64,000 nucleotides of DNA from Acaryochloris sp. CCMEE 5410 (lineage in GTDB: Bacteria; Cyanobacteriota; Cyanobacteriia; Thermosynechococcales; Thermosynechococcaceae). Positions within the stretch are counted from its first letter, which is position 1. The number at the start of each line of letters is the position of its first letter. The translations under genes and the position numbers were made by a program. The notes under the pieces were generated by a model. It did not search any database and was not told the DNA's origin. It worked only from the letters and a program-made list of their open reading frames with translations. Of the stretch, positions 13,072 to 18,479 are shown piece after piece. The stretch covers positions 3,596,001 through 3,660,000 of the forward strand of contig NZ_AFEJ02000001.1 of NCBI RefSeq assembly GCF_000238775.2, in the 5' to 3' direction.

Positions 13072-13323
13072 CTAGGAGTATTCATTGGATCCCATTGTCG
13101 CTATCGGTACAATTTCCAAGAGTCTTTAGATTTCTGGTCGAAGTGATCAATCATTCAGTTTGGGTGATCTGGCGTTGGAAAACTGAGTGTTTCAAATTTT
13201 CCAAGGACCTGATCACTGATCTCGAATACTGCCTTTTTGCAGGTAAAGCTGTGTAAAAAACAGTATTCCTTATGCACAATGGGCAAAGGGTTAGCACATA
13301 TTCAACTAGAGCAGGCTTACACT

Positions 13324-14625
13324 ATGAAACTCCAGCACAAAAAGTATTGGCTACAACCTGGACTGTTGTGCTTGATTCTCTCCATATCTAGTGCGTATCA
13401 TTGGATGACCAGTCAAGGTGCAGAACTAGATGTTTCCCCTTCTCTGACTGCACCAGCACCGCTTACGGCTTCACAACAAAAAGGCTATCTCAAAGCTCAG
13501 AAACGGATTCAAGCTGCCCACGAGACAAAAGCGACAACCCTAGATCTTCAGGGGTTAGGTTTGGCTGAACTCCCACCAGACATTGGTCAATTGCGACATG
13601 TTCAAATCATCTACCTTGTGGGCAATAGCTTACAAACGCTACCACCCGAGATCGGGCAGCTCAAACAACTCAAAACCCTCAATCTGTCTGGCGGCAACCT
13701 CAATCGCCTGCCTCCAGAAATAGGTCAGTTGTCGAATTTGCAGTCGCTAAACCTCTATAAGAATCAGCTCAGAACCCTTCCACCCGAAATCGGGCAGCTT
13801 AAACAACTCCAAAGGCTGGATATTCGCAATAATCGGTTGAGCGCTCTACCCCCAGAGATTGGAGGCTTACAGAACCTAAAACGACTCACTCTGCACCACA
13901 ACCAACTCAAGACTCTTCCACCAGAGATCGGTGAACTCAAAAACTTACAAAAATTAGCGGTTGATTACAATCAACTACACCGTCTGCCTGTGGAAATCGG
14001 TCAACTTGAGAATTTAGTGTCCTTAGGCCTGCCATACAATAAACTCAAGCATCTGCCGGTCAGCATCGGTCAACTGAACAACCTTCAAGTGTTGGGGCTC
14101 AATTTCAATCAGTTAACACATCTGCCACCAGAAATTTCACAACTGCACCGCTTAGAAGTACTGAGTCTAACGAGCAATAAACTGCAGCGTTTCCCCACTG
14201 AGATTATCCACCTGACCAATCTGGAAGTCCTTCACCTGGGTGCTTCACCAGAAAGCTTGGCATTTAGTGTGCAATTTCACCTCAAGGAAGAATATGCAAC
14301 TACCTTCAACCAAGTCAGTTCACTCCCTCCCGAGATTGGCCAACTCACTCAGTTGCAGGATCTTAACCTTGGATCTTGTACGTTGCTTAATCTACCCCCC
14401 GAAATCGGCCAACTCGTTAACCTACAAATGCTAGGCCTCAGTAATAACGGACTGATGAGCGTACCTCACGAGATCGGCAGACTCGCTAACTTACAGGGAC
14501 TAGAGCTAAGTTATAACCAACTGAAAAGCTTACCTCCCGAGCTGAAAGCACTCACACGCCTAGAGTATCTAAATTTGTCCAATAATCCTTTACCCGCTGA
14601 AGTGATGAAACAACATCAGCAATAA
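13324..14625 (+). CDS. Exported leucine-rich repeat protein
   Basis: The protein has a basic N-terminus and a hydrophobic helix (LLCLILSISSAY), then a linker with QKGYLKAQKRIQAA. About 14 LRR units of 23 residues follow, of the form LPPEIGQLxxLxxLxLxxNx. One unit (near residue 300) carries an insertion of about 20 residues (from ASPESLAF). This repeat type is the same as in plant intracellular Ras-group LRRs and bacterial adhesion-like proteins. ATG at 13324 is preferred; the frame extends upstream to a possible start at 13237. No partner is known, and a role in protein-protein contact outside the cytoplasm is inferred. Confidence 0.85.
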   Translation: MKLQHKKYWLQPGLLCLILSISSAYHWMTSQGAELDVSPSLTAPAPLTASQQKGYLKAQKRIQAAHETKATTLDLQGLGLAELPPDIGQLRHVQIIYLVGNSLQTLPPEIGQLKQLKTLNLSGGNLNRLPPEIGQLSNLQSLNLYKNQLRTLPPEIGQLKQLQRLDIRNNRLSALPPEIGGLQNLKRLTLHHNQLKTLPPEIGELKNLQKLAVDYNQLHRLPVEIGQLENLVSLGLPYNKLKHLPVSIGQLNNLQVLGLNFNQLTHLPPEISQLHRLEVLSLTSNKLQRFPTEIIHLTNLEVLHLGASPESLAFSVQFHLKEEYATTFNQVSSLPPEIGQLTQLQDLNLGSCTLLNLPPEIGQLVNLQMLGLSNNGLMSVPHEIGRLANLQGLELSYNQLKSLPPELKALTRLEYLNLSNNPLPAEVMKQHQQ

Positions 14626-14637
14626 CTACTCTTGGCG

Positions 14638-15474
14638 TTATAAGAATTTAGGTCGTTCTGCCTGAGTTTGATTCAAAAGATCTTCTAAAGCTGACCAGTC
14701 TGACCGTTCAATAACATCTGTAAGCTGATCGAGACTGTGGCGGTATTGGTGGAGCGATCGCAACAGTTCTTCCCGGTTGTACTGAGCCATCATGCAGCCC
14801 AGTTCCGGGTTGCCACCCCCCACGCGACTGGTATCTCGAAAGCCAGAGCTGGCAAAAGATTGGGCGAGTTGTAGAATCTCTGAATCTGCTTCACTTAAGC
14901 AAGCGGTAATTAAAGCTGCACTAGTCATTTTAGGCAGGTGGGAAATCCACGCCACCGCCCGATCATGAACCGTAGGCGAGCATTCATGGAGGTTGCAATC
15001 TAGCTGGCTGACTAGCTCTTTCATCGTCTCGATCACATCGGCTGGCGTTTCAGCCGTCGGCGTCAGGATATAGGGATTTCCTGCAAAAAGTCGGGACTGG
15101 GCTGCATGAATACCCGTTTCTTCGCTGCCCGCCATGGGGTGGCCGCCAATAAAGCAGGGCCATAAGGGGGTTAAGCGTTTCACCACGGATCCTTTGACAG
15201 AGCCGACATCTGTGAGAATCGCATTTTGAGACAAATGAGGAATTAAACGGGCTGCGATCGCATCTATCACACTCACCGGGGTACAGATAAACACGACATC
15301 CACGGGAGCCAGAGAAGTGAGATCGCCACTGGCAACATCGACAGCTCCCAGTTTGACGGCATCCTCACAGGTTTGGGGCTGGCGACTCACGCCTAGCACT
15401 TTATATCCCAAGGCCCGGAAATCATAGGCCAAGGAACCACCAATTAAACCGAGGCCAACGATGCCAATGTTCAT
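14638..15474 (-). CDS. tyrA: Arogenate/prephenate dehydrogenase
   Basis: TyrA makes tyrosine (or 4-hydroxyphenylpyruvate) by oxidative decarboxylation; cyanobacterial enzymes usually act on arogenate. The N-terminal dinucleotide fold is GIVGLGLIGGSLAYDF. GGHPMAGSEETGIHAA holds the catalytic His region, and an all-alpha C-terminal domain follows. The ATG at 15474 overlaps the TGA of the upstream gene (ATGA), so it is chosen over the frame start at 15546. The protein is 278 aa with no ACT domain, normal for the group. Confidence 0.95.
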   Translation of the reverse strand: MNIGIVGLGLIGGSLAYDFRALGYKVLGVSRQPQTCEDAVKLGAVDVASGDLTSLAPVDVVFICTPVSVIDAIAARLIPHLSQNAILTDVGSVKGSVVKRLTPLWPCFIGGHPMAGSEETGIHAAQSRLFAGNPYILTPTAETPADVIETMKELVSQLDCNLHECSPTVHDRAVAWISHLPKMTSAALITACLSEADSEILQLAQSFASSGFRDTSRVGGGNPELGCMMAQYNREELLRSLHQYRHSLDQLTDVIERSDWSALEDLLNQTQAERPKFL

Positions 15475-15758
15475 CCTGCCAAACTCATAAACTCTATGCG
15501 GGGAATCAGAGGATCTTTTACCATACCGATGCCTTGAAATTGCCAACGGTCCATAATTCCTCGTAGTTGGCTTTTACCAATCGATTCGACACTAAACTTA
15601 GAGGCGGCGGCTTGAGCATGGGTATTGAGATAGCTGAGGGCATCATAATGCTCAGGGAACAGCAGCAAATAGCACTGGGTCGTGTCTGGGTCAGGCCGAG
15701 CAGCTAAATAATTGCCATCGGCCCGAGAGCGGAGCGTGTAGTAGAGGGCAGTGTTCAT
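15471..15758 (-). CDS. Conserved hypothetical protein
   Basis: This is a 95-aa soluble protein starting MNTALYYTLRSRADGNYLAAR. I do not recognise a named domain. It contains several aromatic residues and a C-terminal PRIEFMSLAG, and has no membrane segment or signal peptide. It overlaps tyrA by 4 nt (translational coupling) and follows the WD40-permease gene by 4 nt, so all three are probably on one mRNA. Confidence 0.75.
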   Translation of the reverse strand: MNTALYYTLRSRADGNYLAARPDPDTTQCYLLLFPEHYDALSYLNTHAQAAASKFSVESIGKSQLRGIMDRWQFQGIGMVKDPLIPRIEFMSLAG

Positions 15759-15762
15759 GGGC

Positions 15763-17640
15763 TTAATTCAGATTACTGAGCTTAATGCGCGGATCGACGA
15801 CGGCTAAGAGGATATCTGCCAGTAGGTTGCCCACAATCAGCATCACCGCTCCCATCATCAACCCCGCCATCACCAAATACAGGTCTTGGGCTTGGACGGC
15901 CTTGAGCAAGAGCTGCCCCAAGCCGGGCCAGTTGAAAAAGAACTCAGCAATAAAGGCACCCCCCAGTAAACTGGAAAATTCAAACCCCAACAGGGTAATC
16001 AGGGGATTGACGGCATTGCGCAGGGCATGGGTATAGATCACCTTATTTTCTGGTAAGCCTTTGGCCCGGGCCGTTTGAATATAGTTTTGGCGGAGGACAT
16101 CCAGCATATTGCCGCGCGTGATTCGTTGTAGACCCGCAAATCCCGTGACGCTGAGGGCCAACGTCGGCAGAATCATATGCCAGCCCACATCCAAAATTTT
16201 GCCGAACCAGTTGAGATCCGCATGATCGATGCTGGTCATATCACCTACGGGAAACAGGGGCGTACTCTGAGCCAAAAATAGCAGCAGTAAGGCGGTGATA
16301 AAGCTGGGAAAGCCCTGGCCGATATAGCTGAAGATACGGAGAATGCGATCGCTCCACTGATTCTGATTCACTGCCCCAACAATCCCCAAGGGAATGGCAA
16401 TGCTCCAGTTAATCACTAGAGAGGCAATGGCCAACAGCAGGGTATTGGGAATCCGCTCCCAAATTAAAGCGGTAACGGGGCGCTGATAGCTAAAGCTTTC
16501 GCCAAAATTCCCTTGATAAACCTGTCCCCAGTGGCCTTTCCAGATCTGAGATAAATCAAAGGTAAAAATATTTTTGAGCCAGAGGCCATACTGCTTAATT
16601 AAAGACCGATCCTTTTGCCACACCTGCACAGACTGATCGGCATTGATCAGGACCAATCGTTCCCCATTATCGGCAAACTGGAGCCCTTTGAGAGGGCCTT
16701 GCTTACCTTCGAAATTTCCCAAAGGCTGATTCTCGTTTTGGGACCATAGGCGCACCGTTTTGCCAGCGCTGGTGGCAAAGGTGGTTCGATCCGGACTAAA
16801 GGCAGCTTCAGTGATGGGTTGAGAATGGAGTTGATTTAAATCCTCCGTTTTCAGAGATTTACCCTCTAAATTCCATTGCTGCCAGGTCTGATGATTGGCA
16901 ATGGTATTGAGCACCAGCCCGTCTGAATTTTGATTAAATTGTAGGGCCGTAATCGCCCCTTTATGGGTCAAGGTTTGCTGGAGGGTGCCAGAAGTTTTCC
17001 ACAGGCGCACCGTTTTATCCCCACCGCCAGAGGCTAAAAGACTACCGTCTGGACTATAGGCCAGAAAAGAGATTGAGCCTGCATGCCCTGTCAAAGTTTG
17101 AAGGAGACCCCCTTCAGTTTTCCACAGGCGCACCGTTTTATCCTCACTCCCGGAGGCCAAGGTTTTCCCATCACTACTAAAGGCTAAACTTGTGACCGTC
17201 CCTTGATGACCTTCTAGGGTATTTACCAGGGTGCCATCGGCTTTCCAGAGCTTGATGGTTTGATCCGCACTACCGGACGCGATCACCTCGCCATCGGCAC
17301 TAAACGCGAGGGTGGTAATCGCCCCTTGATGACCTTTTAGGGTCTTGAGAACAGTACCCTGGTCATCCCAAAGGGCAACGGTATTCGCCTCCCCGGTCAG
17401 GATCTGGCTGCCATCGGGCTTGATGGCTACGGCGGTAATGTCTTTGGCGGCAAATGTGGTTACGGCACTGCGATCGCCCCAGGTATTGCCCAACCCAAAT
17501 TCTTGGCGCAGCTCTTCTAGACGCTCTTGCGACATCTGGGGATTATTTTTGAATTGATCGAGGTAGTCCCCAGGGGCTAGATCGACAATATAAAAAGTCA
17601 ATAGCGACGCCAAAAATAGGGTGATCAGACCTTGAAACAC
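15763..17640 (-). CDS. Peptide-type ABC permease (DppB/OppB) with WD40 propeller inserted after TM1
   Basis: Residues 1-50 are TM1 and the start of a DppB-type periplasmic loop (LAPGDYLDQF, LRQEFGLG). Residues about 62-345 form seven WD40 blades, ending at VALWDD, IKLWKAD, VRLWKTE, VRLWKTS, WQQWNLE, VRLWSQN and VQVWQKD. Residue 345 onward resumes the loop (NFGESFSYQRPV) and five more helices with the coupling motif ARAKGLPENKVIYTHALRNAV. Without the propeller the length is about 340 aa, normal for DppB. By family topology the propeller would face the periplasm. GTG at 17640 is the only start in frame, but the codons just upstream still read YTIKR, typical of a permease N-terminus, so an unusual start is possible. 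No ATPase or binding-protein gene lies nearby. Confidence 0.9.
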   Translation of the reverse strand: MFQGLITLFLASLLTFYIVDLAPGDYLDQFKNNPQMSQERLEELRQEFGLGNTWGDRSAVTTFAAKDITAVAIKPDGSQILTGEANTVALWDDQGTVLKTLKGHQGAITTLAFSADGEVIASGSADQTIKLWKADGTLVNTLEGHQGTVTSLAFSSDGKTLASGSEDKTVRLWKTEGGLLQTLTGHAGSISFLAYSPDGSLLASGGGDKTVRLWKTSGTLQQTLTHKGAITALQFNQNSDGLVLNTIANHQTWQQWNLEGKSLKTEDLNQLHSQPITEAAFSPDRTTFATSAGKTVRLWSQNENQPLGNFEGKQGPLKGLQFADNGERLVLINADQSVQVWQKDRSLIKQYGLWLKNIFTFDLSQIWKGHWGQVYQGNFGESFSYQRPVTALIWERIPNTLLLAIASLVINWSIAIPLGIVGAVNQNQWSDRILRIFSYIGQGFPSFITALLLLFLAQSTPLFPVGDMTSIDHADLNWFGKILDVGWHMILPTLALSVTGFAGLQRITRGNMLDVLRQNYIQTARAKGLPENKVIYTHALRNAVNPLITLLGFEFSSLLGGAFIAEFFFNWPGLGQLLLKAVQAQDLYLVMAGLMMGAVMLIVGNLLADILLAVVDPRIKLSNLN

Positions 17641-17678
17641 CCGCTTAATGGTGTACCCGAGGAGTTCGCTACCGATAA

Positions 17679-18191
17679 CTAGTACTCCACCAACACATTA
17701 ACGGAACAATCGGGCAGCTTTTGTCGCCCTGCTAAGCCCGTCAGCTCGATAATAAACCCAAATCCGACCAGCGTGCAGCCTAGGGGTTCGAGAAGCTGAG
17801 CCGTTGCCGCAGCCGTCCCTCCGGTGGCGAGGAGGTCATCCACAACCAGCACGCGACTACCTGCAGGACAAGCATCTTGGTGAATTTCCAGGCGATCAGT
17901 GCCGTACTCCAGTTCATATTCTTGGGCATGGATGGCGGCAGGGAGCTTGCCGGGTTTGCGAACCGGGACAAAGCCAGCCCCAAGTTGATAGGCCAACGGG
18001 GCACCAAAAATAAACCCCCGCGACTCTATCCCCACCACATAATCAATGGATTGATCACTATAATCATCCGTAAATTGATCGATGACATAACGAAGACCAT
18101 CAGGATTTTGCAACAAGGTCGTAATGTCCCGAAACAAAATGCCAGGCTTGGGAAAATCGGGAATATCGCGAATCAGTGATTTGAGATCCAT
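17679..18191 (-). CDS. apt: Adenine phosphoribosyltransferase
   Basis: Apt salvages adenine to AMP with PRPP. The protein shows the N-terminal [19 protein letters not shown], the family hood [14 protein letters not shown], and the PRPP loop [19 protein letters not shown] at 18191 (MDLKSLI) matches the usual start; an in-frame ATG at 18212 would add seven residues. Its stop lies 38 nt before the WD40-permease start, so the two may be cotranscribed. Confidence 0.96.
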
Positions 18192-18479
18192 AGGGGTTGT
18201 GATTTTACGCAAGGTGAACAGATGGGATGACCTTTTATCCTGATTAAAGGACAGGGGACGGTACGTCAGAAATCGTACACTAATGTGGTTGACAATCTGG
18301 ATGGCTCCCGCTGATTCCCTCTAATACCCTGCCAAATCAGGCCGGGTTGGGTGTGAACTTTTAGAGCAACGCATCGTCGAGGGGCTTTTTCGGGCAGTCT
18401 AGATCTGGATGCCAATGCTAAGGTTTCTTCAGCCGTTGATTCAAAATCTCTTCCGTATTCTTGTCGTAATGGATTCGTA

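Follow-up and report, generated by a model that had tools for sequence, protein, structure and literature searches.

A DppB/OppB-type ABC permease with an inserted WD40 propeller in Acaryochloris

In Escherichia coli the dppABCDF genes form one operon, and residues 32-62 of the membrane subunit DppB make up a periplasmic scoop motif that joins the first transmembrane helix (TM1) to the alpha-3 helix, is disordered in the lone translocator and lies inside the cleft of DppA upon docking (PMC12136057). In the maltose importer, the P2 domain of MalF moves as a rigid body around MalE (PMC8134467), and the WRAP-type protein of Nostoc punctiforme (2ymu) is a 14-repeat protein with two propellers (PMC8458387). 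The gene described here lies in a 64,000-nucleotide stretch of DNA from Acaryochloris sp. CCMEE 5410, referred to as the window. Its product has the same order of TM1, scoop, alpha-3, core and coupling motif as the type I permeases E. coli DppB (8z1v) and OppB (8z21), but unlike them it contains a WD40 propeller, and in contrast to the dppABCDF operon the subunit genes in Acaryochloris are scattered. The architecture is real, conserved in the genus and apparently undescribed. No description of a permease with an inserted WD40 propeller was found in a literature search conducted outside the subscription journals; in the initial annotation the architecture had been called unusual and no described function was known.

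Gene structure and the inserted domain

The gene is a single uninterrupted open reading frame of 625 codons on the minus strand, read from a GTG at 17640 to 15763 (15763-17640, stop included), and the plus strand across this interval is full of stops. The initial annotation had described one uninterrupted frame and left its strand unstated. In Pfam searches with the 625-aa protein, WD40 (PF00400) scored 190.7 bits against a cut-off of 27 (9e-58) and BPD_transp_1 (PF00528) scored 144.8 bits against a cut-off of 26.4 (3e-42) over residues 415-620. Alignments to uninserted orthologues and to E. coli DppB showed that TM1, scoop, alpha-3 and permease core are all present and in order. TM1 and the scoop motif occupy residues 1-54 (17479-17640, minus strand), as assigned from a hydropathy peak at residues 1-19 (TM1) and from alignment with the uninserted orthologue and with 8z1v. 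The propeller occupies residues 55-347 (16600-17478, minus strand; Pfam, orthologue alignment, AlphaFold2 and Foldseek), with no hydrophobic segment found within it by hydropathy, and the alpha-3 helix, the remaining TM helices and the coupling region occupy residues 348-625 (15766-16599, minus strand; Pfam and alignment). With permease sequence on both sides, the insertion is internal and not terminal, as annotated; the annotated size of about 285 residues was refined to about 293 (~55-347), starting after the scoop motif. The alignments revealed a second insertion of 15 residues (~361-375; 16516-16560, minus strand) in the same loop, directly after the alpha-3 helix, which is absent from other cyanobacteria and from Acaryochloridaceae SU_2_1. 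The best NCBIfam matches were OppB-type permeases, the top one being Opp2B with 247 bits against a cut-off of 350, and the insert lowers these scores. No substrate was assigned to the permease, since the DppB, OppB, NikB, Opp2B and Opp4B equivalogs of NCBIfam all scored under their curated cut-offs.

The insert is, according to the structure model, a closed seven-bladed WD40 propeller, and the seven blades counted in the initial annotation were seen with both AlphaFold2 and Foldseek. The AlphaFold2 model has 28 strands in the propeller (7 x 4), and a long stretch of sequence separates its first strand (model residues 73-76) from the last three (331-354), which fits a closed seven-bladed propeller whose last blade is completed by that first strand. 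The pLDDT of the propeller is ~77-95 nearly throughout and 52-73 at its N-terminal edge; that of the permease part is poor (~40-70), and the model consequently does not fix the orientation of the propeller. The top Foldseek match was the designed seven-bladed WRAP propeller 7big (TMt 0.87, rmsd 2.8), and the natural seven-bladed WD40 propeller 5yzv was also matched (TMt 0.82-0.85). The nearest matches in both fold and sequence, the N. punctiforme protein 2ymu and the designed WRAP-T 7big, likewise have near-consensus repeats, although blades 2-4 of the Acaryochloris protein are only 53-65% alike in amino acids. Where 2ymu has two propellers, the Acaryochloris protein has one, embedded in a membrane protein.

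The insertion point was mapped by aligning an uninserted orthologue with 8z1v_A by phmmer and carrying the result to the Acaryochloris protein through the orthologue alignment; the uninserted orthologue aligns with 8z1v over its whole length. W54 of the Acaryochloris protein is opposite DppB residue 62 and the insertion point follows residue 62, so the propeller begins at the end of the scoop. Across the junction, uninserted orthologues read FGL-DKSW-xxQY-xxWL and inserted ones FGL-GNTW-[propeller]-QKDRSLIKQY-GLWL, with DKTW in place of GNTW in SU_2_1. A target-site duplication was considered, as DKTW on the N side in SU_2_1 and DRSL on the C side both resemble DKSW; the resemblance is suggestive, though a match of four codons is not long enough for proof. 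The scoop is intact and highly conserved in the Acaryochloris permease, and conservation within and around the insert is highest in TM1, the scoop and the linker WQKDRSLIKQY. The scoop residues E41 and R42, which contact DppA in E. coli, stand opposite N33 and P34 of the Acaryochloris protein, so that the scoop contact with the binding protein may differ.

Translation probably begins upstream of the GTG at 17640 and not at this codon. The probable additional N-terminal codons, IGSELLGYTIKR (17641-17676, minus strand), were assigned from synonymous-biased change, homologous N-termini and the sequence itself: in the Acaryochloris comparisons the 11 codons 5' of the GTG have changed mostly synonymously, and they are homologous to the DppB N-termini of other cyanobacteria. 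The sequence GGAGTACTAGTTATCGG is common to the four genomes whose apt gene ends within about 40 bases. Between 17641 and 17700 there is no ATG, GTG or TTG ahead of the conserved N-terminal permease codons. In four Acaryochloris genomes an ATC, here at 17676, follows closely after apt, GGAG precedes it by eight bases, and translation of the permease perhaps starts at this non-standard codon. In Acaryochloris sp. CRU_2_0 and in SU_2_1 the N-terminus is longer and extends upstream to an ordinary start codon.

A cytoplasmic location is common among WD40 domains, and the form that starts at the GTG has no K-R pair ahead of TM1, both of which would suit a cytoplasmic propeller with TM1 inverted or uninserted. 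This arrangement is nevertheless very unlikely: the upstream residues with the K-R pair appear to be translated, the homologous loop of the solved DppB is periplasmic, and inversion of TM1 would disrupt a strongly conserved permease fold. The propeller is placed, by homology, in the periplasm, and the loop lies outside the cytoplasm, as annotated, by homology to the solved DppB.

Distribution, origin and selection

The comparison covered 39 related genomes and 29 genomes of the family (7 of the same genus, including that of CCMEE 5410, and 22 others). All six Acaryochloris-lineage genomes with a match to the gene, CCMEE 5410 included, carry the insert at the same junction; the seventh same-genus genome (82% complete) had no such match. 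The other named insert-bearing records are Acaryochloris sp. IP29b bins 137, 148 and 176, CRU_2_0 and SU_2_1. In four of these relatives the insert-bearing gene is full length at 75-88% identity; the SU_2_1 copy has the same junctions, lower identity and a frameshift within the insert. This last copy (L032:2254-3977) has six WD40 units, on a contig with ~2.3-fold coverage, and its unit number and frameshift may be assembly errors. The 22 other family members all have the gene without the insert, their frames being 333-387 aa and their matches beginning only at about residue 353-376. Across the phylum an orthologue was present at 1e-60 or better in 320 of 386 genomes, and among roughly the 150 best of these 320 a frame longer than 424 aa occurred only in the Acaryochloris CCMEE 5410 genome. 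The insert was also absent from 73 other cyanobacterial loci.

In the initial annotation a chimera of misassembly, or homologues in relatives without the propeller and with no reads across the joins, had been named as grounds against the architecture. Its absence is indeed the rule outside the genus, but within the genus every genome in which the gene was found has the insert, so that the propeller was gained in this lineage and is no artefact. The named insert-bearing relatives are metagenome assemblies, and this could be taken to favour an assembly or frame artefact that fused two genes, but such an artefact is extremely improbable. Six genomes share the junction, four relatives retain full-length identity of the order given above even though the SU_2_1 copy is more divergent and frameshifted, the accession prefixes point to at least three separate data sets, and change is synonymous-biased throughout. 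The chimera was rejected on the identical junction in six genomes together with dN/dS.

The gene adjoins apt (adenine phosphoribosyltransferase; 17679-18212, minus strand), the upstream neighbour kept in cyanobacteria, in most of the cyanobacterial loci compared, and its downstream neighbour in many cyanobacteria is a conserved open reading frame of 95 aa (15471-15758, minus strand) with no match in Pfam or NCBIfam. This conserved apt-permease order, with the 95-aa frame in many genomes, identifies the insert-bearing gene as the native orthologue. Also near the locus, on the plus strand at 13237-14625, is a gene for a leucine-rich-repeat protein of ~460 aa (judged by eye from the translation). 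In the proposed history a vertically inherited cyanobacterial DppB-type permease would have received a whole WD40 propeller once, in an ancestor of Acaryochloris, in the TM1-TM2 periplasmic loop between scoop and alpha-3. A duplication with retention of a normal copy was considered and rejected, because no uninserted orthologue was found in the genome and its other DppB paralogue is ~35% identical and lies beside another binding protein. No near copy that could be the parent gene of the propeller was found among the listed WD40 matches in the same genome (~40-53% identity), and plasmid records contained nothing that covered at least 80% of the query.

Pairwise dN/dS values among Acaryochloris (Nei-Gojobori), which are rough as dS was often near or above 1, were 0.01-0.03 (about 0.02) for the permease core, at most 0.07 for TM1 and scoop where computable, and 0.10-0.17 (about 0.13) for the propeller. 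The order is clear: the permease is under very strong selection and the propeller under selection that is evident and weaker. On these values the propeller is maintained open and folded, under a constraint looser than that on the permease.

Partner subunits and possible roles of the propeller

The neighbours of the permease gene are apt, the 95-aa frame and tyrA, and no linked transporter or operon partners were found at the locus. An orphan DppC-type permease at C2:1867791-1869062 (L110:3792-5063), in which ~160 residues separate the N-terminal domain from the core domain, is conserved alongside it in almost every cyanobacterial relative searched. The genome encodes four SBP_bac_5 proteins as well as oligo_HPY ATPase domains, none of them linked to the permease gene. 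One of the four, an orphan solute-binding protein at C1:2482297-2483943 (L107:2298-3944), belongs to a clade with a member in each of the seven Acaryochloris-lineage genomes (that of SU_2_1 in two pieces) and with none in the other family members searched. The family's native binding protein, which lies beside the second DppB, is also present in Acaryochloris, and in the tree the orphan clade stands apart from it and nearest to that of a more distant cyanobacterium. The coincidence of orphan binding protein and propeller is only a correlation, as it rests on a single branch of the tree and as another genome (G028) has both types of binding protein and no propeller. The orphan is accordingly named as a candidate partner of the propeller-bearing permease, as a lead only.

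The proposal for the locus as a whole is that of a single ancestral insertion into a permease that still works, with the periplasmic propeller as an accessory domain for docking or gating, and is put at a probability of about 0.45. The permease would still transport notwithstanding the insert, the propeller would fold in the periplasm beside the docking site of the solute-binding protein, and near the scoop it would hold or select the binding protein or what that protein carries. The initial annotation had suggested that the propeller could bring a solute-binding protein, a peptide or the cell wall to the transporter, and the position at the end of the scoop sharpens this idea: a propeller of ~290 residues at the scoop hinge would be next to the binding protein in its docked state and may contact it. 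P2 of MalF, too, is an additional domain with a fold of its own, set in a periplasmic loop of a membrane subunit of a type I importer, the periplasmic side of the propeller being assigned by homology. The fold and the loop of P2 differ from those of the propeller and the two are not homologous, so that the propeller is most likely comparable to P2 in working principle and unrelated to it in fold. A dN/dS several times that of the permease, and the fact that most cyanobacteria do without a propeller, were both counted against the docking proposal, and no conserved patch was demonstrated on the exposed surface.

The same looser constraint and the restriction to one lineage would be expected if the propeller were a tolerated ornament, an insert in a permissive hinge that has no partner and is kept folded since misfolding of the loop would be harmful to an important permease. 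Blade number may also vary, as the six units and frameshift of SU_2_1 suggest, but at ~2.3-fold coverage these defects may be errors of assembly, and the propeller has been retained in every gene-bearing genome of the lineage despite near-saturated synonymous sites. A tolerated ornament is possible, though somewhat doubtful. WD40 domains are general docking platforms, and the propeller might bind another target, such as peptidoglycan, an envelope scaffold or a protease, and so place the importer at a site in the envelope. Slr1410 of Synechocystis, listed as a 'periplasmic WD-repeat protein' (PMC3479031), was counted in favour of this, but the position right at the scoop favours contact with the binding protein and no envelope gene is linked, and a target of this kind is considered unlikely. 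A version of the docking proposal in which the propeller is a second docking site, through which a permease with scattered partners accepts an additional lineage-specific binding protein (that at C1:2482297), is likewise judged improbable. If true, it would mean that a WD40 platform was grafted beside the scoop, widening or switching the binding-protein specificity of the importer.

Should the propeller touch the binding protein, the permease would be a case in which a general docking domain has naturally been grafted onto the substrate delivery of an ABC importer at the scoop hinge. It would show that this DppB loop can take up a large folded domain and still function, a property useful for importer engineering. 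Acaryochloris and its relatives provide a natural comparison with and without the propeller. Even as an ornament, it would be a clear case of the entry of a whole propeller, in a single lineage, into a strongly conserved membrane protein.
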